From Butyrivibrio sp. (GTDB lineage Bacteria > Bacillota > Clostridia > Lachnospirales > Lachnospiraceae): a stretch of 64,000 nucleotides of DNA. The notes under the pieces are model-generated. The model had not been told where the DNA came from. It did not search any database and was given only the letters and a program-made list of their open reading frames with translations. This document shows positions 23,646-37,002 of this stretch, one piece after another. Position numbers and translations under genes: made by a program. The stretch lies in NCBI GenBank assembly GCA_023664865.1, contig JAMPEU010000010.1, forward strand, positions 50,094 to 114,093. Reading direction: 5' to 3'. Positions within the stretch are counted from its first letter, which is position 1; each line of letters starts with the position of its first letter.

Positions 23646-24684
23646 CTATAAATCAAATCGCTTGTCACAAAATCTAAATAGCGGCTCCTCAATTATCTTC
23701 CTTCTTAAAATATCTATTAATACGCATATAACAAAAATACCGATAACCGCCAATAACATATGCACACTCAAATATGGCGACTCAATCCGCACATCTTTAA
23801 ATATAATTTCCCACATTGTGTAACGTATGTTTTTATTATTATGAATCAAATATACTCCCAGCACAGAGCCGCTTATATAGTTTATCAGCTTATTACTTTT
23901 CATTTTAATATTTCTAAATATGCCAAAAACAGACAGTACCCAAAAAATTACCAACGGGCTGCTCATTCTCAGAAAATATCCGGTATTGCCGGCAAAAAAA
24001 CTGTGTTTGGTCCCCAATATATCAAAGACAATAACTGTTCCTGTAAGCGCAATTAATAATACAACCGCTGCTATGAAGTTTAATTTTATATCATTAAATT
24101 TATTGTCAGGATATCGTCTTAGATATATGCCAACCAAATAAATAAAAAGGTAAAATCCAACATCAGAAATAATAGATGCAGGTCCTCCCGGCATAGTGGG
24201 AATCAGGCTGGTAATGATAAATAAAATGATAAGTAATTTCTGATGAGATTTTTTATCCAGATTTCTAATTATAATATTAATATACGGCATCAGCAGCATC
24301 AACACTATATACGCAGTCATAAACCAATATTCACCATGACTAAACGGAAGCATTGCCGCTATAAATGAGCGTGTACCCAGCCCCCCCCCGCGCAATGGCT
24401 GCAATCACCATACATACTACAGAATAAAATAACATTTCAAGCCACAGTTTGAATATACGTTTCCGATTGTCTGTGTAATCTTTCCAGAAATAACCGGATA
24501 TTGCAAAAAACATTATATTTCCTGCTCCGCCGCCAAAACATAAAGTTTGAATTAATACACGGTTAAATGTAACCGCTCCGGTTGGAAACTCCGGCTGAAT
24601 ATATCCTGCATAATGGCTTACAACAATCAAAATCATAGCAACTATTCTTAAAAGTTCAAAATTACTCTGACGTTCTTTAGTCAT
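23646..24684 (-). pseudogene. Acyltransferase family 3 gene, frame broken in a nine-G run (possible phase-off state)
   Basis: The 5' part (ATG at 24684 with a GGGGGA site; SNFELLRIVAMILIVVSHYAGY has the family R-x10-H pattern) reads into a run of nine G and then leaves frame, ending after 114 residues. The 3' part continues in the next frame (LGTRSFIAAMLPFSHGEYWFMTAYIV and on to RFCDKRFDL) with no other lesion over about 240 residues. Removing one G gives one 345-residue protein with the correct helices and the HGEYWFMTAY family motif. An otherwise clean gene with a single defect in a long homopolymer suggests switching by slippage rather than decay. Its role would be O-acylation of the surface glycan. 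Confidence 0.88.
24381..24389. repeat. Homopolymer C9 (G9 on the coding strand)
   Basis: Nine consecutive C on the plus strand inside the acyltransferase gene. It is the longest G/C run I see in the window. Eight or eleven G would restore the full-length frame; nine does not. Confidence 0.95.
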
Positions 24685-24733
24685 AAAATATTTCCCCCGA
24701 ACTATTATTTATACCGCTTTACACATCTAAATC

Positions 24734-24762
24734 ATATTACCTTAAAATGTATCATTATTCAA
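24734..24762 (-). promoter_or_regulatory. Sigma-A promoter for the minus-strand acyltransferase gene
   Basis: Minus strand TTGAAT (24757-24762), 17-base spacer, TAATAT (24734-24739), about 50 bases before the ATG at 24684. Both boxes and the spacing are kept in the duplicated copy at 34712-34740. Confidence 0.65.
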
Positions 24763-24785
24763 GAGGCTTGGAATCGCCGTACTTA

Positions 24786-24814: not shown

Positions 24815-24841
24815 AAATTATTATTAGAAATGAGGTCATTT

Positions 24842-25996
24842 ATGAATGTTGTATATGTTGCGCCTATGTTCCACACTAATCAGGTTCCTATTGTAAAAGG
24901 CTGGCTGGAACATGGACATCAGGTTTCTTTTATATGTCAATACACAGGTAAAACAGAAAATCATAAATACTGCGTTCCGTATGGTATGGGGTATTCTGTC
25001 TTATTTAAATTTTTTTTGTCCATATACAATTTGTTCAACAATCCTCGTAAGCATCTTAGCGCATATCCGGAGGCTTTTAGGGATAAATGCGGTTTTCCGC
25101 CCATATTCAAATTTTTTAAATATATGAAAAAATTAAATCCTGATATTGTAATCCTCAGAGAACGTTCCGTATATTCGATATGCGCTTATATCATATGCCG
25201 GTTACAGCGGACAGACTGTGTTTTATATAACCAGACTCCTCTTTGGGATAACGAACCCCCGCGTAACGATTTGGCGCATCGTATTGTGAAAATGCTGACA
25301 CCTTCTGTCCGCATGACTCCGGTGCTGGGCAATCCTGATACCGGTTATTTGGACAAGCATGCCGTTTATATCCCTTTTGTCATTGAACCTCAGCAAAGCC
25401 CGGAACAGAAAAAATACTTTCGCAATCAACGAATAAATATTTTGTGCGTTGGGAAATTTGAAGAGCGCAAGCATCACCTGATGCTGCTGGAAATCGTCCG
25501 GCAGCTATTTACGGATTATCCTCTTCATCTGACCTTAGTCGGTGAAGTTTCCACACAATATCACAAAAATTATTACCAAAAAGTCCAGGATTATATTACC
25601 GTAAATCACATGGAAGACTTGGTTGACTGTCACATCAACTGTCCTCCTGATAAAATGTCTACTTTCTACCGCAGTGCAGACCTTTTTGTATTACCAAGTA
25701 CAGGTGAATTTGCCTCCGTTTCACAACTGGAAGCAATGTCACACTCCCTCCCCGTAATTGTCAGCAACACTAATGGAACTGCATGTTACATTGAAGAAGA
25801 TAAAAACGGATATTTGTTTAAGGATAAAAATGAAAAAGATTTAAAAGAAAAAATTACTAAAATAATCTCAAGCAGAAAAAATATTCTGCAAATGGGCGCT
25901 TACAGTTACCTGCTGGTAAATGAAAAATACTCTTTTACAAATTATCAGGCAAAAATCAAGACGTTAATTAAACCAAGAAAGGAGCACGGTTGCTGA
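24842..25996 (+). CDS. Glycosyltransferase family 4
   Basis: About 384 residues. The frame opens at 24830, but the ATG at 24842 has a GAGG site six bases upstream and starts the conserved MNVVYVAPMFHTNQVP. The second half carries CVGKFEERKHHLMLLEI and the E-x7-E type region (LPSTGEFASVSQLEAMSHSLPVIV), marks of a retaining GT-B enzyme. First gene of a plus-strand operon with asnB and a GT11 gene, opposite to most of the locus, behind a good promoter. A near-identical copy of its first 50 or so bases, with the ATG changed to CTG, lies at 35845-35901. An 8-T run near 25010 is in frame. Donor unknown. Confidence 0.88.
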   Translation: MNVVYVAPMFHTNQVPIVKGWLEHGHQVSFICQYTGKTENHKYCVPYGMGYSVLFKFFLSIYNLFNNPRKHLSAYPEAFRDKCGFPPIFKFFKYMKKLNPDIVILRERSVYSICAYIICRLQRTDCVLYNQTPLWDNEPPRNDLAHRIVKMLTPSVRMTPVLGNPDTGYLDKHAVYIPFVIEPQQSPEQKKYFRNQRINILCVGKFEERKHHLMLLEIVRQLFTDYPLHLTLVGEVSTQYHKNYYQKVQDYITVNHMEDLVDCHINCPPDKMSTFYRSADLFVLPSTGEFASVSQLEAMSHSLPVIVSNTNGTACYIEEDKNGYLFKDKNEKDLKEKITKIISSRKNILQMGAYSYLLVNEKYSFTNYQAKIKTLIKPRKEHGC

Positions 25997-25997
25997 T

Positions 25998-27932
25998 ATG
26001 TGTGGAATAGCCGGCTTTTGCGGACAAACTTCTGACAATCAAATGCAGATTAAACGCATGTGCGATAAAATGATATACCGCGGTCCTAACGCCGAGGGGT
26101 ACTGGCTTGATTCCGAAGGTGCAATTACATTAGGACACAGGCGGCTTTCTATTCTGGATTTATCGTCAAACGGCTCTCAACCCATGTGTTCTTCAAGCGG
26201 GCGGTTTATTATAAGTTACAACGGAGAGATTTATAACTTCAAAATAATTCGCAGCAAGCTGATAAACGACGGCTTTATAAACCATTTCAGAAGTGCTTCC
26301 GATACGGAAGTTATTCTGGAAGCATTTGAAGCCTACGGACTTGACGCTGTAAAAGACATGAAAGGCATGTTTGCTATCGCCTTGTATGACAGAAAAGAAA
26401 AAACTTTACACCTTATGCGTGACCGTATGGGTGAAAAACCGTTATATTATGGCATGGTCAGCGGTAAATTTGCTTTTGCTTCCGATTTGTCCTGCCTGAC
26501 TGTATTAGAAGGCTTTAACACAGAGATTAACCGAACTGCGCTTTCAGCTTTTATACGCTATAAGTCCATTCCGCAGCCTCTTACTATATATAAACATATT
26601 TACAAGCTGCTGCCCGGACAGATTTTATCCATAAACGCGCCGTTTACAACTCCGACATTCTCTACTTACTGGTCGGTAAAAGATACTGCCCTGTACGGTT
26701 TTGAACATCCCTTTAAAGGTACGGAAGCAGATGCCAAAGCGGAACTTAAATCTCTACTTGTAGAAGCAGTACGCGGTCAGATGATTTCTGATGTACCCAT
26801 TGGAGCTTTCCTTTCAGGCGGTATTGACAGTCCGCTTGTTGTCTCTATTATGCAGAGCCTTTGTAATGAAAGCGTCAAAACATTTACCATAGGCTTTGAA
26901 GAACCCAAATATAATGAAGCGGAATACGCCAAAGATATCTCCAGACATCTGGGAACAAACCACACTGAACTGTATATTTCAGAACAGGACTTAAAGAATG
27001 TCATTCCCCTGCTGCCTTCTATTTATTCGGAGCCGCTTGCAGATCCTGCATGCCTGCCCGCCTATCTTATCAGCAAACTTGCTAAATCAGAGGTAACTGT
27101 GACGTTAAGCGGTGACGGCGGTGACGAGTTGTTCTGCGGCTATGAGCTTTATGTCCGGCTGGAAGACCTGTGGAATAAATTTAATAAAGTTCCTTATAGT
27201 ATAAGAAAACCCATGGGCGTTTTATTGCAACATTCACCTTTAAAGTATAATAATAAATTATACAATATCGGAGAATATGCACAGCTTACTGATTATAACA
27301 GGCTTCATGAATTATTTAGGAATGAGCATAATTATGACGCTCACAATGCCGTCTGTGACATCACAAATCCTCATGATTATTTATCAGGCTCATGGCTTGA
27401 CGAAGATAAAGAGTTACTCCCCGATATAGAGCAGTTCAGACGTGATATGTTTTTGGAGTTTCCGGATATCAAGTCTTCAATGCTTTACCGTGACCAGACC
27501 GGATTTCTTCCCGATACTGTTCTTCCTAAAGTTGACCACGCTGGAATGTATGTATCCCTTGAAAACCGAATACCTTTGCTTGATAAAGACATTATTGAAT
27601 TTTCATGGACTCTGCCTATTAATTATAAATGTTCTGGCGGTTCCAATAAAAAGATATTAAAAGAATTGCTCTACGAGTATGTTCCAAAAGAAATGCTCAA
27701 TCGTCCCAAGCACGGATTCGAGGTTCCGCTTCCTGAATGGCTTTCCATGGGAGAGCTTCACGAATGGACGGGTGAACTGATACTACACAGCCGCCTCGCT
27801 GATGATGGCTATTTCAATAAAAAGATATTACACAGAATGTGGAAAAATTTTAATATAAATCACTCAAACGCTCTGCAGATATGGTACGTTCTTCAGGCAG
27901 AAAGTTGGTATCGCTTTAATGTAAAACCTTAA
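25998..27932 (+). CDS. asnB: Asparagine synthase-type glutamine amidotransferase (second copy)
   Basis: A 644-residue AsnB-family enzyme. Cys2 is the glutaminase nucleophile, RGPNAEG (28-34) and YNGEIYNF (74-81) follow, and the synthetase P-loop is SGGIDSP (273-279), where the usual final Ser is Pro; the core SGGxDS is kept. LSGDGGDELFCGYEL and the C-terminal RPKHGFEVPL are typical. It starts one base after the GT4 stop and precedes a GT11 gene, so a role in amidating a carboxyl group on the glycan is more likely than general asparagine supply. Divergent from the copy at 13850 and clearly not a recent duplicate. Confidence 0.87.
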   Translation: MCGIAGFCGQTSDNQMQIKRMCDKMIYRGPNAEGYWLDSEGAITLGHRRLSILDLSSNGSQPMCSSSGRFIISYNGEIYNFKIIRSKLINDGFINHFRSASDTEVILEAFEAYGLDAVKDMKGMFAIALYDRKEKTLHLMRDRMGEKPLYYGMVSGKFAFASDLSCLTVLEGFNTEINRTALSAFIRYKSIPQPLTIYKHIYKLLPGQILSINAPFTTPTFSTYWSVKDTALYGFEHPFKGTEADAKAELKSLLVEAVRGQMISDVPIGAFLSGGIDSPLVVSIMQSLCNESVKTFTIGFEEPKYNEAEYAKDISRHLGTNHTELYISEQDLKNVIPLLPSIYSEPLADPACLPAYLISKLAKSEVTVTLSGDGGDELFCGYELYVRLEDLWNKFNKVPYSIRKPMGVLLQHSPLKYNNKLYNIGEYAQLTDYNRLHELFRNEHNYDAHNAVCDITNPHDYLSGSWLDEDKELLPDIEQFRRDMFLEFPDIKSSMLYRDQTGFLPDTVLPKVDHAGMYVSLENRIPLLDKDIIEFSWTLPINYKCSGGSNKKILKELLYEYVPKEMLNRPKHGFEVPLPEWLSMGELHEWTGELILHSRLADDGYFNKKILHRMWKNFNINHSNALQIWYVLQAESWYRFNVKP

Positions 27933-27963
27933 AGATAATTAATTAGTAGAAAGGACTTTTAAG

Positions 27964-28812
27964 ATGATTTATTCACAGACCACAGGCGGATTCGGCAATC
28001 AACTTTATAACTATGCGATCGGCTTCGCATTGGCAAAACAATACGGGGATAACTTAACTATTGATATTTCCCCTTATAAGTTTTCACAGAGACCTTTTGT
28101 TTTAGATCAAATGACGATTTCCGAAAAGGTTGTTTCACTTTTTCCGCCTAAAAAAGATACCAAATTGTCCCGTATGGCAGCGCGCGCACTTAGAATTCTT
28201 GCTACTAACCGTTATGGATGTTGCAAATGGATTAAAGAACGCTATGACACACGAAACCAGTTTGCCAACTATGACTTTTCACATAAGGCAAGCCTTTATT
28301 TGGAAGGTTTCTGGCAACATTACCGCTATTTTGACAATTATCGGGATTTATTGTGCAAAGAATTTCAGTTAAAGGAAGAATTTATTTCTGAGCAGTGTCG
28401 TCGTTTGATAAAGCAAAGCCAGTCGGAAGACAGTGTGGCAGTACATATCAGGCGCGGCGACTATGAAGCTTCATGGCTGCTGAACGACGATTATTATCAC
28501 AATGCGTTTAATTTAATGAGTGATAAACTTAAAAATCCCCACTACTATATTTTCTGCGAAGATATCCCCTATATAAATGAGCATTATGGATATCTCGCTA
28601 ATGCAACCTTTGTCACAGGCGATTTTTCCCTGTCAGACATGGAAGAATTCTGGCTTATGACGAAATGCAGGCATCAGATTATCGCCAACAGCACGTTCTC
28701 ATGGTGGGCAGCTTATTTAAATACTAACTCTGACAAAATTGTAATCGCGCCTGAATATATGCACTGGAATAAAGAATACTATCCTTCCGGCTGGAATGTA
28801 CTGCGGGCATAA
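27964..28812 (+). CDS. Glycosyltransferase family 11 (alpha-1,2-fucosyltransferase-like)
   Basis: A 282-residue protein of the GT11 type. It has the N-terminal TGGFGNQLYNYAIGFALA block (7-24), the HIRRGDY motif (161-167) shared by GDP-fucose-dependent alpha-1,2/alpha-1,6 fucosyltransferases, and the C-terminal ANSTFSWWAAYLN block. It should transfer fucose (or a related GDP-sugar) to galactose or GalNAc in the cytoplasm. AAAGGAC seven bases upstream supports the ATG. Last gene of the plus-strand operon, convergent with an acyltransferase. No GDP-fucose synthesis genes are in the window. Family is firm; the fucose donor is inferred from the motif. Confidence 0.9.
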   Translation: MIYSQTTGGFGNQLYNYAIGFALAKQYGDNLTIDISPYKFSQRPFVLDQMTISEKVVSLFPPKKDTKLSRMAARALRILATNRYGCCKWIKERYDTRNQFANYDFSHKASLYLEGFWQHYRYFDNYRDLLCKEFQLKEEFISEQCRRLIKQSQSEDSVAVHIRRGDYEASWLLNDDYYHNAFNLMSDKLKNPHYYIFCEDIPYINEHYGYLANATFVTGDFSLSDMEEFWLMTKCRHQIIANSTFSWWAAYLNTNSDKIVIAPEYMHWNKEYYPSGWNVLRA

Positions 28813-28836: not shown

Positions 28837-29967
28837 TCATTGTTTTGAAGAATCTCTGTTTCGGTCAATTACAAAACCAAAGCCGGTATACATTAATCTT
28901 TCTATAGGAATTTCTATCCATCTATGCAATGGCAAAGCAATTATAAATGATGTTGCAATAACGACTACATATTTCACTAACCAGCCAACTACTCCATTAC
29001 CAACTAAACCGGGTATATATTTTGTGTACAAAGAAATAATTTGAAAATGCAGCAGGTAAATTGGATAAGAATATTCTCCCAACTTGCAAAATATAATATT
29101 ATTTACAAATGGAATTGGTTTAATATATTGGCTAAGCGCTATCAAAAAGAACCACATGCCAAACAGAGTAACTTCACTCAATCCCAATAATTTATTTTTA
29201 TCCAATATCATACCACTTAGCATACACAGTGAAAACAAAAAGAGTGTCATAGACAATAGCGTCCTATGCCTTATTTTACTTAGCATTTGTGATTTACAGC
29301 AATGAAATAATAAAATTCCCAATATCATCACAGGTAATTGTGCCAAAAACCATATATTCAAATAATCTGAATAAATATATGAATCTATAACATCTGGTAC
29401 AAATTTTCTTAACAAGAAATTTATCAGGCAGCAACCAATACCAGTTCCAATAAAACAAATAACGGATTTTTCAATAGAGTTTACTTTTTTATACAAAAAA
29501 GGCACTGCCACATAAAAAATCACCAAAGCGCCCAAATACCATTCCACTCCTATTATACTATTAATATAATGGGGAAAAAGACCATGTAAAAACAGTATAT
29601 GTGCCAACACATTAGCTGTTGTAATTTGCGTTTCACTCCCTAGCCAATATGGCATACCCCCACCAAGTATACCAGATACTGCAAGCGCAATATAATATGT
29701 GGGTACTAATCGTATAATTTTCTTAGCAATCCAGTGACCATCTTTTTCTGTTGCCGAATGCTTTTCATAAGATATAAAAAGCAAAAATGCAGAAAGCACA
29801 AAAAAAAGCTGAACACAGTTTTTTCCGTAAAAAACTATATTCGACAAATACTGTGGCAAATCCGAATTATTACAATGACACATTACAACACCGCATATTG
29901 CGATTCCTTTTAATGTATCAACCCAGACATATTTTCTTTTCTCAGTTTCCTTTTCTCTATTTATCAT
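28837..29967 (-). CDS. Acyltransferase family 3 membrane protein
   Basis: About 376 residues with around ten helices. The N-terminus (YVWVDTLKGIAICGVVMCHC) and the VQLFFVLSAFLLF segment match acyltransferase-3 proteins that O-acetylate surface sugars. The frame is open to 30000, but the ATG at 29967 (GAGAGG six bases upstream) is preferred. Composition looks more AT-rich than flanking genes, a hint of separate acquisition. It precedes nothing on the same strand (the next gene is convergent GT11), and it lies 40 bases after the off-frame GT-C gene. Confidence 0.87.
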   Translation of the reverse strand: MINREKETEKRKYVWVDTLKGIAICGVVMCHCNNSDLPQYLSNIVFYGKNCVQLFFVLSAFLLFISYEKHSATEKDGHWIAKKIIRLVPTYYIALAVSGILGGGMPYWLGSETQITTANVLAHILFLHGLFPHYINSIIGVEWYLGALVIFYVAVPFLYKKVNSIEKSVICFIGTGIGCCLINFLLRKFVPDVIDSYIYSDYLNIWFLAQLPVMILGILLFHCCKSQMLSKIRHRTLLSMTLFLFSLCMLSGMILDKNKLLGLSEVTLFGMWFFLIALSQYIKPIPFVNNIIFCKLGEYSYPIYLLHFQIISLYTKYIPGLVGNGVVGWLVKYVVVIATSFIIALPLHRWIEIPIERLMYTGFGFVIDRNRDSSKQ

Positions 29968-30007
29968 GTTCTGCCTCTCCATTGTCCGCATCAAGCACAA
30001 ATTTTTC

Positions 30008-31725
30008 TTATTTGTTCAAAGCGTTTATTTTTGCTAAAATACGACCGTCTATTTCAAACACTTCATAATTATATTTTATATATTGCATAAAATCACTCTC
30101 AATGTCCTGCTCCGTTACAGGGTAACTACCCAGCGGATAATAATACACTATTGTCGGGAACTTATCAGGATGCAGCGCATAATACTGTTCCAGTCTTTCG
30201 TAATCTGTTTCCAATAAATATGTACTCATAGTCCCGCACTCCATATTGCTATATAAATACGCCAGCGGCGTATTTCTTCCGCAAAACAAAATATCATCCT
30301 CTTTATATGATACCTTATCCAAATCCGACATAATGTTATTAAATATCTGATATGCGGTTTCATCAGTATATGTGCCTTTTAAGGGTCCTTTCTCTATATA
30401 ATACGAATAATTCCCGGTTAACAAAGAATCCGTCCATGTAAACACTATTCTCATAGAGAACACACAGGTCAAAACTCCTATGCATAATACTGACAGACTC
30501 TTTTCTGTCAAAACCGTATGTTTAAGATTTTCATTCGCTAACAGATTCGGCAACATAATAATAGTAAAAACTGCCATGAGACATAATCCTGCCGAAGTCG
30601 TAATAATACCGGTATCTGTTGCCAAACAGAAACCTAACGCTGACAGAGCTGCCAACGCCCAGAGGCAATTATATTTTTCTTTCTCTCTACGGATAAAAAC
30701 AGATATCTCCATCGAAAACCAGATGAACGGAATAAAAAATTCATTTTCCACATATGGTCTTCCTGATGTCATAACTGTCATGCACGAAAATATTAAACAT
30801 ACTAATGACCCATATATAAGATAATCAGCATATCCTTTTTTATAATGATTAACAGCCACCACAATGAAAAAATATACCATATTGATAATTGTCAATGCCG
30901 TATAATTCTTTAAAATGTGATATCCTGTTTTAAGAGGCTTAAGCAGAAGGCTTTTGCCCCCCCCGTGCCTGAAACGCTATGGTTTTTGTCATTCAGAATA
31001 AATTGTAAATTCTCAGAAATTTCATGCAGGGAAGCTCTTGAGAAAATAAAAAGCAAAAAAATCAGCAAAACAGTAACAGCGCCGGCGCTGACAAGCACAT
31101 ATTTCTTTAGCGGATGCCATTTACCGCCAGAGTTTCGCGTATATGCTTTCCATGCGGCAAAAGCTGCTCCCGCAAAATAAATCAATATGAAGAATGGCTG
31201 CGCCAATATTGACATTGCCAAAAAAATACCACATAAATAATAGTCCAGTTTCTTCCTTTTCTCAGTAAGATAAACAGCCCCTATCATCATTACCATTCCT
31301 ATCGGTATTGTATTATAAGACAACGAATCCAAATTATATGGAGTAAAAAAATAGAATACTGCGACACCCATCATGCCAAACAAACCATACGGCTTTAACC
31401 TTTTCAAACAAAAAAACGCTACAAACATCTTATATATAAGATACAGAAAACGGAAATACAAAACAATTCCCTCTGTTGTTTTCATTATTGCCATATATAG
31501 AGAAACAAATGGAAGAAGTAAAAAACCGCTCATCTGCGCTGTATTCCAATCATCCGCCAACATAGCATCACCTTGGTAAAAACGATAAGCGGTTGTAATG
31601 TAATATAACTCGTCCGTAGTGCCTATTGTGGTAATCAGGCATTTTAGGACAAAAACAAAAGTCGTAACTATTAAAACAATTATAAATACACCTGCTGTTT
31701 TTTTCCTATTTATTTCTCTTTGCAT
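30008..31725 (-). pseudogene. GT-C-like membrane protein gene, frame broken in an eight-G run (possible phase-off state)
   Basis: The 5' part (ATG at 31725, MQREINRKKTAGVF) encodes a first helix, a loop with TTDELYYIT (acidic GT-C-like position), several helices and DKNHSVSGTG, then enters eight G and terminates 16 codons later. In the next frame the sequence goes on directly as GKSLLLKPLKTGYHILKNY, then TIINMVYFFIV, further helices and a soluble C-terminal domain ending ILAKINALNK. Adding one G restores a single 572-residue protein with no other defect. It overlaps the upstream acyltransferase by about 20 bases. Probably a surface-glycan sugar transferase; substrate unknown. Confidence 0.86.
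30957..30964. repeat. Homopolymer C8 (G8 on the coding strand)
   Basis: Eight consecutive C on the plus strand inside the GT-C-like gene. Nine (or six) G would restore the reading frame; eight does not. Confidence 0.95.
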
Positions 31726-32713
31726 AATAATCCCAACTCCATCCACCATTCAGTATCGGACATACTCTGTCAATAATAAGCGCCGGTATAATCCAGGCTA
31801 TACAAGCAATAATGCAGATAATTAAAGCATATGCGCTTCCGCTTATATCAAACGGAAGCAATTCCAGCAGTTTCCTACCGAATATGTATCCATGCGATCC
31901 AAATGCAAAATATAGCAGACTATGACTACCCATAAAGGTTATCAGCGGAATATGACTCCACTTTTTTGTCAGTGCGAAAACCGCAAATACTCCGCTGAAA
32001 CATAATATGAAGTACATTATTATATTTTGTATATCATTCATTTTCACATTAAAACCACGGTAGCTGAAAATTTTTATGGATACTGCTATTTCTGCGATAT
32101 AAAAGAGCGGCGTTGCCCATGCTAATTTTCTCATGGTGCATACATCCAGCGGCTTATTATCCAGATAGTGCCTGACATAGTATCCTACAATAATAAATAT
32201 CTGATTTATCAAAGCACAATTTATATTCCATATATTCAGAATTTCTATTTTTCTTAGCACAAAATATGCAAAAACAGAAACTATAAAACTGACAGTTATA
32301 ACAAGCTTTTGGTCTTTGCATAACCTCATAATCGCATATGCCATAATCGTAGAAACCATTAACGCTGGAACAAACCAAACCGCCGTTCCTTTTAAAATAT
32401 TAATAGTACAGTCTATTCCTATTTCCTTTATTGCATTTGCATCTTTTAACATTCGTCTTATATCGGAAATATTAGTATATGCCTGGACATACGAAATTAT
32501 TATCCATGGTATCAATAATTTTAATATTCTTTTATTTATAAAATCTTTTACCTTCATTTCCGGTCTAAGCAGATACCCCGACGTAAAAAAGAAAATAGGC
32601 AGCATTACCGGGGAATATATCAATCTGTGGATTCCATCTACGCCTGTATGCTCCATCATTACGCAAAAACTGCCGATCCCCCTCAGGGTATCAATCGATT
32701 CGTCTCTTTTCAT
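31706..32713 (-). CDS. Acyltransferase family 3 membrane protein
   Basis: About 335 residues with ten or so helices. ESIDTLRGIGSFCVMMEHTG holds the family Arg and His, and the LPIFFFTSGYLLRPEM segment is the standard second block. Such proteins transfer acetyl or succinyl groups to extracytoplasmic sugars. The frame opens upstream at 32752; the ATG at 32713 is the first codon of the conserved domain and has a GAAGGGAAG site, a little distant. Overlaps the following GT-C-like gene. Part of its central sequence (32461-32500) is found again in the scar at 35962-36001. Confidence 0.87.
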   Translation of the reverse strand: MKRDESIDTLRGIGSFCVMMEHTGVDGIHRLIYSPVMLPIFFFTSGYLLRPEMKVKDFINKRILKLLIPWIIISYVQAYTNISDIRRMLKDANAIKEIGIDCTINILKGTAVWFVPALMVSTIMAYAIMRLCKDQKLVITVSFIVSVFAYFVLRKIEILNIWNINCALINQIFIIVGYYVRHYLDNKPLDVCTMRKLAWATPLFYIAEIAVSIKIFSYRGFNVKMNDIQNIIMYFILCFSGVFAVFALTKKWSHIPLITFMGSHSLLYFAFGSHGYIFGRKLLELLPFDISGSAYALIICIIACIAWIIPALIIDRVCPILNGGWSWDYYAKRNK

Positions 32714-32764
32714 AAAATTAGACTTCCCTTCTCGCAGTAGGCAATCAACCAAATTCCACTACTC

Positions 32765-34150
32765 TTACCCATGGTATAAGTAATAAATTGTAAAGTCGAG
32801 ATCAAATCCGTAGACTCCATAATCAATATACTTAATATTATGTTCCTGCAGTTCCTCCATGTCCAATATATTTGTTGTTTCAATCTCTGCCGCAAAATAC
32901 CACATATAATCAAAATCAGCAGAATATACATCGTATCCATCAAGATATGCTTGAACGGTATCTGGAAAATAGTATGGTATAACACTGCATAAATCACCAT
33001 GATCATAAAGAATCATATCGCCTTCACGAAAGTGCTCATCTGCAAACTGTAATGTTTCCTCCGCCATATTATCATATTCCAACGCGTACGTTTTTGGATA
33101 CACTCGTAATCCCGTAATAATGAAAATCAGCATAGGTATACACAACAAATATTTGGGTATATATTTACATACGCAACACATTCCTAAAATAGTTGCATAC
33201 AAAGGGATCATCAAATACTTGCCCACCAAAATCGGCCTCATAAGCTGCTGAAACACCAACCCAAATATCAGGATAATCCAAACTGCCGACATACATACCA
33301 ACGACCAGTACAGTTCCACTGTCTTTAACTTACACCAAAGAACAAATCCAATCAAAAAGAATATAACCAGCAACAGTATATATACATTTTCAAATTTGGG
33401 TATATCTGTTCTAAACATATCCCGCATGATTCCCAAGCGTGATGTAGCCGCCGGAATCCAACTGGTAGCTTCTGATTTTGTCTGACGCAAAATTATCGGC
33501 ACCCATGGCAAATATACTGCAATAGTGCAGGCTGCACAGATTAACCATGCCTTCACCTGTTTAAAATCACGTTTGAACAAGTAAAACAAAAGCAAGCCTG
33601 AATATATTACCACCAAAGTAAGCACCGCAAAATAATGAGTATAGGCTGCTGCCAGACTTAAAAGAGTGAATAATATCCAATCTTTTCTAGTAGCAGATGG
33701 GCTTAAAAGGTGATACATTTGTATACAACTGCATGATACAAGAAATAACGTCCATGTATATGTGCGCACCTCCACAGATTTTCTCAACATCAGGGGTGTA
33801 AACAACACAAACAAACAGTAAAAAATCATTGTTTTATAACCAAATTCTCTCTTAACAAAAGATGCTCCTATAATAAATAGCAGAAAAACAGCCAAAACAG
33901 AAAAAAGTTTCGCTGCCAATAAACTATTATTTGTAATTGCGAGTACAATTCTCAATGCCCAAAGATACAAAGGGCATGAATCCAGCTTCATTCTTTCTAG
34001 AAAAGCCGGAAACGGCAAAGTACTCCACCGCAAACTAAATCCTTCATCCACCCATATGCTTTTACTAAAGCACAATGACAGCGGAATAATGGTTAATATT
34101 GAAATAAATATTATAGTAAAATATTTCTGTGTTTTTTCATTCTTCAACAT
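32765..34150 (-). CDS. GT-C family membrane glycosyltransferase (ArnT/PMT-like, GT39-type)
   Basis: A 461-residue protein with about eleven helices. After helix 1 the loop reads SIWVDEGFSLRWS, the acidic DE motif of polyprenyl-phosphate-sugar transferases such as ArnT and PMT. DSCPLYLWALRIV and EVRTYTWTLFL are also typical of this group (YPPLY- and R-Y-type blocks). A soluble C-terminal tail follows (DEHFREGDMILYDHGDL to the end). GGAGGG upstream supports the ATG. It probably adds a sugar from a lipid donor to surface glycan outside the membrane. Just upstream begins the recombined 34.2-36.0 kb region. Confidence 0.82.
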   Translation of the reverse strand: MLKNEKTQKYFTIIFISILTIIPLSLCFSKSIWVDEGFSLRWSTLPFPAFLERMKLDSCPLYLWALRIVLAITNNSLLAAKLFSVLAVFLLFIIGASFVKREFGYKTMIFYCLFVLFTPLMLRKSVEVRTYTWTLFLVSCSCIQMYHLLSPSATRKDWILFTLLSLAAAYTHYFAVLTLVVIYSGLLLFYLFKRDFKQVKAWLICAACTIAVYLPWVPIILRQTKSEATSWIPAATSRLGIMRDMFRTDIPKFENVYILLLVIFFLIGFVLWCKLKTVELYWSLVCMSAVWIILIFGLVFQQLMRPILVGKYLMIPLYATILGMCCVCKYIPKYLLCIPMLIFIITGLRVYPKTYALEYDNMAEETLQFADEHFREGDMILYDHGDLCSVIPYYFPDTVQAYLDGYDVYSADFDYMWYFAAEIETTNILDMEELQEHNIKYIDYGVYGFDLDFTIYYLYHG

Positions 34151-34181: not shown

Positions 34182-34639
34182 TCAATTAATAAACTTATTC
34201 TCACTCAACCGATACTTATTTCCCATCAGTTTATGTTTCACAATCCACCAGCCCGACACCCATATTCTCTGTTTCATGGCGGGGGAAGCGCTGCCTATCA
34301 TCCAGCAGTTTTTATCACAGCATTTCATCTGTTCCCTGACTTTCTGCGCCTGTTCTGAATTCCAGATTTCTTTCCATGTGTTATCATGCAGATTCCCCAT
34401 CGACATTTTTTCCGTGCTTCCATTGCATGGAAGCACATTTCCATATGAATCCAAGAAAAAACCGTTCGTTCTCATTTCGTAGGGCAGAAGAGGTTTCTGC
34501 AACCTTTCTTTTATCATCGATTTTATTATCAGTCTTTCTAAAGTAGAATGAATTATGAAGAGTCGCCGTGGCAAACTCCATATTCAACTCATCCGAAAGA
34601 TTATATAACGGCACCAAGTCCTGACAATTCGTATCCTGT
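34182..34639 (-). pseudogene. Truncated copy of the radical SAM/SPASM gene
   Basis: Closely matches 36010-36564 (part of the intact gene at 36001). It lacks the whole 5' half, including the radical SAM CxxxCxxC, and has an internal deletion of about 100 bases near 34500, corresponding to about 36321-36425, which shifts the frame after KVAE. The C-terminal SPASM-like part (LPCNGSTEKMSMGNL to SENKF) remains readable. At about 34639 the homology stops abruptly and continues as a copy of the acyltransferase 5' region. The product cannot be a radical SAM enzyme. Confidence 0.9.
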
Positions 34640-34755
34640 TTACTCTGACGCTCCCTAGTAACAAAACATTTCCCCCGAAATATTAGTTATATCGCCTTAC
34701 ATATCTAAGTCATATTACCATAAAATCATTTATTATTCAAGAGTATTGGAACTGC
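34640..34755. repeat. Diverged copy of acyltransferase 5' end plus promoter region (left half)
   Basis: Aligns without gaps to 24662-24777 over 116 bases, about 80 percent identical by eye, including the ribosome-site region and the minus-strand TTGAAT/TAATAT promoter boxes with 17-base spacing. Homology ends at GGAACTGC, exactly where the right half at 35829 takes over. The stretch from here to 34863 has no gene; it holds this copy and the promoter of the next gene. Confidence 0.88.
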
Positions 34756-35828: not shown

Positions 35829-36001
35829 GCCGTACTTATTGACCTCATTTCTGAACGTTGTATATGTTGCGCCTATGTTTCACACTAATCAGGTTCCTAT
35901 TCCAATCATCCACCAACATTGCATCTCCCTGATAAAAACGATAAGCAGTTGCAATGTAATATATCGGAAAGATTAGTATATGCCTGGACATACGAAATTA
36001 C
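35829..36001. repeat. Recombination scar built from four local fragments
   Basis: 35829-35843 equals 24776-24790. 35845-35901 equals 24836-24892 (57 bases, three differences), with the promoter in between deleted and the GT4 start codon ATG changed to CTG. 35899-35963 matches 31543-31607 (part of the off-frame GT-C gene). 35962-36001 matches 32461-32500 (part of an acyltransferase gene). A 65-codon open frame across it is an accident. The region holds no real gene. Confidence 0.9.
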
Positions 36002-37002
36002 TATGATTCTATAAACTTATTCTCACTCAACCGATACTTATTTCCCATCAATTTATGTTTCACAATCCACCAGCCCGGCACCCATATTCTCTGTTTCATT
36101 GCCGGAGAAGCGCTGCCTATCATCCAGCAGTTTTTATCGCAGCATTTCACCTGTTCCCTGACTTTCTGCGCCTGTTCTGAATTCCAGATTTCTTCCCATG
36201 TATTGTCATGCAGATTCCCCATCGACATTTTTTCCGTACTTCCATTACAGGGAAGTACATTTCCGTATGGATCGAGAAAGAAACCGTTCGTCCCCATCTC
36301 GCAGGGCAGAAGACGCTTCTGTCCGTAAATATAGTTTATAAGTCCATGATTAAAGTAAGCTCTCGCCCATTTCTTCGGAGACTTTGACTGCAATAAGGCG
36401 TTAATCAGCTCTTCAAACGCCTCGGCAACTTTTCTTTTATCATCAATTTTATTATCAGTCTTTCTAAAGTAGAATGAATTATGAAGAGTCGCCGTGGCAA
36501 ACTCCATATTCAACTCATCCGAAAGATTATATAACGGCACCAAGTCCTGACAGTTCATATCCTGAACCGTCATTCCGAATCCCACGTCTTTATGCCCCAT
36601 TTCTACGAGTTTCTTTAACGTTCCGTATCCTCGGTTAAATCCGTCGGGAAGACCGCGTATGGCGTTATTGGTCTCTTCAAGCCCTTCTATGCTGATGCGT
36701 ATTCCGACTTCGGGGAATTCCTCGCAGAGCTTGATGATTCTGTCGGTAAAATATCCGTTAGTGGAAATAACGATGCGATTAGTCTTTTTATACAACAACT
36801 CCACAATGTCATGGATGTCCTGTCTGATAAAGGTTTCGCCGCCCGTAATATTAGTGAACGCCATCTCAGGAAGTTTCTCCAGTGTTACTAAATCTATCTC
36901 TTCTTCCGGTCTGGTCGGATCTTTAAAGCAATCGCACATATTACAGTGCGCATTGCACCTATATGTTATTATAATTGAACCATGCAGTTTTCTCTTCCCC
37001 AT
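36001..37002 (-). CDS. Radical SAM/SPASM domain protein
   Basis: About 333 residues. CNAHCNMC (Cys16, 20 and 23 from the chosen ATG) is the CxxxCxxC motif for the SAM-bound 4Fe-4S cluster, TNITGGETF is the SAM-binding GGE motif, and the C-terminal LPCNGSTEKMSMGNL with VKCCDKNCWMIG is a SPASM-type auxiliary cluster region. The ATG at 37002 is chosen because it begins the conserved part; the frame extends to 37026. Radical SAM/SPASM proteins modify peptides or oxidise alcohols; in polysaccharide loci their substrates are mostly unknown. It follows a GT4 gene almost directly, and a truncated copy lies at 34182. Confidence 0.88.
   Translation of the reverse strand: MGKRKLHGSIIITYRCNAHCNMCDCFKDPTRPEEEIDLVTLEKLPEMAFTNITGGETFIRQDIHDIVELLYKKTNRIVISTNGYFTDRIIKLCEEFPEVGIRISIEGLEETNNAIRGLPDGFNRGYGTLKKLVEMGHKDVGFGMTVQDMNCQDLVPLYNLSDELNMEFATATLHNSFYFRKTDNKIDDKRKVAEAFEELINALLQSKSPKKWARAYFNHGLINYIYGQKRLLPCEMGTNGFFLDPYGNVLPCNGSTEKMSMGNLHDNTWEEIWNSEQAQKVREQVKCCDKNCWMIGSASPAMKQRIWVPGWWIVKHKLMGNKYRLSENKFIES

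Follow-up and report, generated by a model that had tools for sequence, protein, structure and literature searches.

A GT-C-like membrane-protein gene of Butyrivibrio sp. loses its reading frame at a run of eight G residues, and long G/C runs are abundant in its genome and in most of the genomes counted from its genus. We consider it very likely that the genus carries a poly-G slippage phasome and that this gene belongs to it, standing in the OFF state in the assembled consensus. It is also likely that the phasome is large (up to 95 tracts per genome), with in-gene and promoter switches, a species-specific length equilibrium and tracts that are regained at variable linkers. The gene lies in the window, by which we mean the whole 64,000-nucleotide stretch of DNA that was analysed; coordinates are collected in Table 1.

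Table 1. Features of the two tract genes and their neighbours in the window
Feature	Positions	Strand	Remarks
G8 homopolymer tract (C8 on the + strand)	30957..30964	-	Reading frame lost here
N-terminal piece, GT-C-like membrane protein; 279-aa ORF	30910..31749	-	True frame up to the tract
C-terminal open frame past the tract	30008..30976	-	295-aa ORF 30008-30895 from first start
G9 tract (C9 on the + strand), second off-frame tract	24381..24389	-	
Acyl_transf_3 N-terminal piece, 114-aa ORF	24340..24684	-	PF01757 positions 3-105, E 2.7e-12
Acyl_transf_3 C-terminal piece, 252-aa ORF	23646..24404	-	PF01757 positions 120-324 (of 326), E 1.7e-15
Acyl_transf_3 neighbour, one open frame	28837..30000	-	Without tract of at least 7
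Acyl_transf_3 neighbour, one open frame	31706..32752	-	Without tract of at least 7
PMT_2-type GT-C membrane protein, one open frame	32765..34150	-	PF13231 E 7.1e-8; without tract of at least 7

The tract reads CCCCCCCC on the + strand, filling exactly the eight positions listed; its coding strand, the - strand, has G8. Two long ORFs, one on either side of it, lie in different frames. A sequence-only reading of the window had proposed that this run splits one membrane-protein gene and that a single added base would join the frames; the observed frames are consistent with that arithmetic, and homologues bear out the split. When the pieces were searched separately, the N piece was collinear with the N half and the C piece with the C half in 19 of 19 homologues. 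The open frames of these 19 loci span 536-687 residues (the shortest, L043, stops at a contig end), and of the 574 positions in a profile of the homologues the N piece aligns to 4-271 and the C piece to 286-569. Seventeen invariant columns were defined from 12 of the 19 homologues, and 15 are kept: all 12 that fall in the N piece and three of the five in the C piece. Among the former is a D-E pair near the N end that is invariant in 12/12 aligned homologues; an acidic D-E pair in the first extracytoplasmic loop is a hallmark of GT-C enzymes. The frame break sits in a poorly conserved stretch. Given the collinear pieces and the retained invariants, the two ORFs represent one recently functional GT-C-like gene that was frame-shifted at the tract, a single gene split at G8 and not two genes.

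The protein resembles GT-C glycosyltransferases (PMT_2/GT39-like, PF13231) in its D-E pair, in the several hydrophobic segments of each piece, and in a weak PMT_2 match of the N piece alone (E 0.0076; 16.9 bits against a cut-off of 26.1). It differs from them in staying under that Pfam cut-off, in lacking any NCBIfam match at E <= 0.01, and in having no solved-structure (PDB) relative by profile search at E <= 0.1. Homologues of the C piece occur in 34 of 397 family genomes counting its own (33 besides its own). A search of 40 relatives with the N piece matched its own genome alone, and a peptide-pattern search of genome contigs with the N piece gave no homologue. At the DNA level, neither tract gene of the window had a match at E <= 1e-10 in the other 76 genus genomes (best three places per genome); the matches of window DNA in 17 other genus genomes all fall within an asparagine-synthase gene.

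The GT-C-like gene has Acyl_transf_3 acyltransferases, glycosyltransferases, a further PMT_2 protein and genes for sugar nucleotides around it. The slippage-type defect in a glycan locus that had been read from the letters is present in its elements: tract, frame break, and glycosyl- and acyltransferase neighbours. Judged by family and by this context, the gene is probably a surface or surface-modifying one. The same reading had pointed to a second, independent off-frame tract in a glycan gene, and this too holds: it is the G9 run, flanked by pieces that match separate parts of one Acyl_transf_3 domain.

The two tracts had also been taken for the longest G/C runs of the window, as they are; next in length come five runs of 6 (one G6, four C6), with none of 7. 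Synonymous-codon shuffling of the window genes, with tract codons excluded, gave means of 0.24 coding-strand G runs of at least 8 and 0.60 of 7; the window has 2 and 0, respectively. By Poisson arithmetic the window excess has p about 0.02, and the tract within the window alone is a modest, mildly surprising finding.

The window's own assembly is a 3.82 Mb draft of 180 contigs (completeness 96.6, contamination 5.1%). Its G runs number 15 of length 7, 54 of 8, six of 9 and none of at least 10; before resolution into runs, the raw windows were 141 G7, 66 G8 and 6 G9. The 60 runs of at least 8 compare with about 14 extrapolated from the shuffle (90% coding assumed), and the shuffle predicts more 7s than 8s, the reverse of the order in the genome. 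The genome-wide excess is not chance. In the loci of its own tracts, A/T runs drop smoothly with length (180 of 7, 33 of 8, three of 9), and G runs number 24, 4, 47 and 6 at lengths 6, 7, 8 and 9; these loci were picked for holding G8, so the unbiased counts are the genome-wide ones only. Tracts are clustered in places: one contig carries 10 of them within 44 kb, and a second contig seven within 36 kb. Judged by the ileS product, its nearest relatives are uncultured Lachnospiraceae, the first from the caecum of a water deer (92%) and others from the colon of a goat and the rectum of a water buffalo (86%); the matches also include the named strains 1xD8-48 (83%) and Lachnospiraceae bacterium A4 (82%). 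The ileS neighbourhoods of 80 named relatives (1.55 Mb) held 10 G/C runs of 7 and two of at least 8.

Run lengths were then counted in 37 of the 77 genus genomes and in 24 genomes from other families of the order. The genus genomes hold 1036 runs of at least 8 versus 261 of 7, and the other families 252 versus 549; the longer runs exceed the 7s in 33/37 and 4/24 genomes, respectively. Long runs per genus genome range from 0 to 95 (the maximum in G005), with 10-95 in 29 of the 37. Their mean length is 8.1 in the window's own genome, about 9.0 in G005, G009, G011, G013, G018 and G019, and 10-11 in G001, G002, G012, G014 and G024. On the larger reading of the phasome, these lengths would be equilibria that differ between species (8 in the own, about 9 in six congeners and 10-11 in others). 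Congener G013 has 81 long runs and not a single run of 7. Such a tight length peak would be the expected product of a slippage equilibrium. Two genomes from other families of the order, G449 and G028, carry 102 and 40 runs of at least 8, with means of about 12 and 11.6; these are possibly independent poly-G phasomes.

To describe what the tracts sit in, we examined 55 of the 60 in the own genome (C125, C165, C166, C172 and C178 were left out) and classified 53, the other two being too close to contig ends. The longer open frame was on the G strand in 50 of the 55. By state, 37 were ON, 11 OFF, four short and one ambiguous; the ON class includes L011 and L023, which are really promoter tracts, and L067 and L068, which have short 5' arms. 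G8 tracts were ON in 35 of 47 cases, again including the two promoter tracts. The OFF:ON ratio of 11:37 is a modest excess over those of G5 runs (10:104, p 0.02) and G4 runs (17:517, p 3e-6) in the same genome. In G013, where 43 of the 81 runs of at least 8 were examined, the ratio of 5:27 shows no difference from the G5 control of G013 (p 0.55) and a weak one from G4 (p 0.07). Enrichment of OFF states was therefore rejected as proof of switching, as it reaches p 0.02 against G5 in the own genome and is absent in G013 against G5 runs there.

Thirty of the 37 ON genes were scanned for families. Sixteen are of glycan-decoration types: MBOAT (3), Acyl_transf_3 (2), generic SAM methyltransferase (4), FkbM (1), TupA-like ATP-grasp (2), sugar-transfer ATP-grasp (2), GT4 (1) and DUF1919 (1). 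Seven more belong to other families (two weakly) and seven to none. The OFF pieces include an epimerase, an FkbM methyltransferase, a TupA-like ATP-grasp protein and a sulfatase. The G013 genes scanned, which include 14 across or just past in-gene tracts and three behind promoter tracts, comprise among others GT61, polysaccharide pyruvyl transferase, Acyl_transf_3, FemAB-like, YfhO and CotH proteins; a response regulator and an AMP-binding enzyme are also present, and the set is therefore not purely of the surface. Two copies of a G8 in the own genome (L010:35 and L058:2623), 88% identical, lie just past an apparent gene stop codon.

Evidence independent of reading frames comes from promoters. 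In G013, four of the 43 tracts (L266:5538, L260:4476, L262:7704 and L262:6319) lie between -35 and -10 boxes of the sigma-70 type, with spacers of 16-17 and at most one mismatch in 12 (one is perfect); shuffled flanks gave a mean of 0.01 and short G runs 0/944. Because two of the four have near-identical surroundings, they are perhaps not independent. Three lie 44-221 bases upstream of genes with lipoprotein-like signals (judged by eye), encoding Peripla_BP_4 and SBP_bac_1 solute-binding proteins and an LRR protein of the BspA type. No ORF of at least 50 aa follows the fourth within 400 nt, and this tract is similar to one of the other three. The own genome gave 0/54 tracts under the strict test (at most one mismatch), and for this reason the promoter claim rests on G013; at up to two mismatches it gave 3/54 versus a null of 0.75. 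Its L011:1501 and L023:1501 tracts are in paralogous upstream regions (76% identical), where G8 occupies an 18-base spacer between weaker boxes (2 and 3 mismatches) and the downstream proteins look secreted and are without a Pfam match. Homopolymer switching in a promoter spacer is known from Neisseria porA. The G013 arrangement is like it in that the tract lies between the -35 and -10 boxes and its length sets their spacing, and unlike it in the genes that follow, which are those for solute-binding and BspA-type LRR proteins with lipoprotein-like signals.

None of the 19 GT-C homologue loci has a G/C run of at least 7. The tract of a PEP-synthase-like gene in G013 (NF004508, L257:15610) lies within a variable linker and is absent from the orthologues in eight of eight other genus genomes, which were found by searching a 20-kb stretch (best three places per genome). 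From these two cases it follows that individual tracts are not conserved, and the PEP-synthase-like case speaks for recent gain; on the larger reading, tracts would be acquired anew at variable linkers and not inherited. A 14.5-kb stretch of a tract cluster in the own genome matched mainly sugar-nucleotide genes beside the tract genes (best three places per genome); two weaker matches that span tract sites (L238 and L239; 66 and 68%) are without a G/C run of at least 7. Two MBOAT paralogues of the own genome, 77.5% identical over 814 bases, have G8 at the same site. From these few genes, tracts seem to arise often and mostly locally. No shared flank motif for site-specific action was found apart from a base bias next to the run.

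In the mechanism that we favour, replication slippage would add or remove G residues and thereby flip the frame of the GT-C-like gene. Its ON length would give the full-length frame, and its OFF length, which would be that of the assembled consensus, a truncated 279-residue product without the C-terminal half. The acyltransferase would switch in the same way at its G9 tract, independently. Elsewhere, tracts in glycan-decoration genes would act as translational switches and those in promoter spacers before lipoprotein-like genes as transcriptional ones. Tract lengths would then vary in living cells, the OFF state would presumably abolish activity, and the outcome would be surface heterogeneity. 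The sequence-only reading had counted two loci and up to four surface states. This is far too low: with some 60 tracts in the genome, about half of the scanned in-frame ones glycan-type, the number of surface states would be far above four, and the same signature extends through the genus.

The split gene could instead be a dead one, whose frame was lost once by slippage at a chance run and which is now decaying without switching back. The lack of long runs in the homologue loci, the change of two of the five C-half invariants and the absence of observed length variation (in what is a consensus assembly only) fit this account, which we nevertheless hold to be unlikely: apart from the tract, some 1.7 kb of reading frame stays open across the two halves with nearly all invariants in place, a second gene of the locus is broken in the same way at a similar run, and the genome has 60 such runs, the majority of the 53 classified lying in one open frame. 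Even less probable is an error of assembly or sequencing, with the true tract in frame everywhere. Homopolymers are the usual site of such errors and the assembly is a draft of many contigs, but most tracts of the very same length in that assembly (35/47) were classed ON, and a uniform error would not yield G8 in one gene and G9 in another; were there an error here, neither the surplus of long runs nor the position of tracts in promoters would be affected.

We give slightly less credence still to programmed slippage of RNA polymerase or ribosome, by which the gene would always be OFF in the DNA and some full-length protein would be made, since most tract genes are already in frame (37 ON and 11 OFF of 53) and tracts between -35 and -10 boxes are best explained by a change in DNA length. 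The least credible account makes the runs a functionless by-product of glycine-rich motifs and GGG codon use. An in-frame G8 does always encode at least one glycine, and in four methyltransferases the catalytic family domain begins no more than about ten residues from the tract; yet synonymous shuffling gives more 7s than 8s and far fewer runs overall, the opposite of the observed order, G013 is without any run of 7, and the promoter tracts are noncoding. A slippage phasome remains our preferred reading.

The slippage mechanism itself is already known from Campylobacter. According to PMC6321876, G9 and G10 make up 52% and 30% of tracts in a Campylobacter genome set, and C. jejuni has 18-39 putative phase-variable (PV) genes, about two-thirds of the homology groups being found in a single isolate; the same paper gives 81 putative loci, under looser cut-offs, for isolate 269.97, and PMC4965091 gives 29 loci of at least 7 for NCTC11168. 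The capsule and LOS poly-G/C loci of C. jejuni resemble those described here in having G tracts within glycan-modification ORFs, many per genome, and in their narrow length peak and mostly isolate-specific genes. The differences are that ours belong to an uncultured Clostridia lineage with its nearest relatives in animal guts, reach 95 runs of at least 8 in one genome (G005), have a usual length of 8 in the own species, and are known from assemblies. Given the 81 loci cited for 269.97, the counts here are large and not out of scale. Phase variation by invertible DNA is described for Bacteroidales and Clostridioides difficile (PMC11868660); the likeness is stochastic surface or regulatory variation in gut bacteria, and the difference is DNA inversion there against the slippage proposed here. 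For slippage phase variation in Lachnospiraceae we found no report in the searchable portion of the open-licence literature; a 378-genome survey of long SSRs, reference 133 of a review, may hold Clostridia.

By analogy, the genus may shuffle its surface as some pathogens do. Phase variation by slippage at many loci would then not be confined to pathogens. Provided that tract lengths do vary, phages, antibodies and neighbouring cells could meet a great many combinations of surface glycans on a single genotype. Some 'pseudogenes' called in draft or metagenome-assembled genomes of the group may then be OFF states.

A single inverted repeat was reported in 22-38 kb (27 nt, 74% complementary), and it does not flank the GT-C-like gene; the plasmid collection gave no match. 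Direct repeats of 300, 143 and 112 bases (92, 97 and 83% identical) link 34189-34751 with 36011-36564 and 24662-24773; they bracket glycosyltransferase cassettes and are possible recombination sites for cassette exchange. At 35840-36004 is a scar in which three short patches follow one another, each joint being a 4-base overlap; they copy 24831-24892 (92%), 31542-31607 (89%; within the split GT-C gene) and 32459-32503 (96%). The scar looks like what a second copy of the locus left behind when it was deleted. Elsewhere in the own genome (G000), the 3.3-kb contig C145 (1-3328, L171) is 80% identical to window positions of about 25534-28812, the asparagine-synthase/fucosyltransferase stretch, and is either a second copy or a second strain within the assembly.
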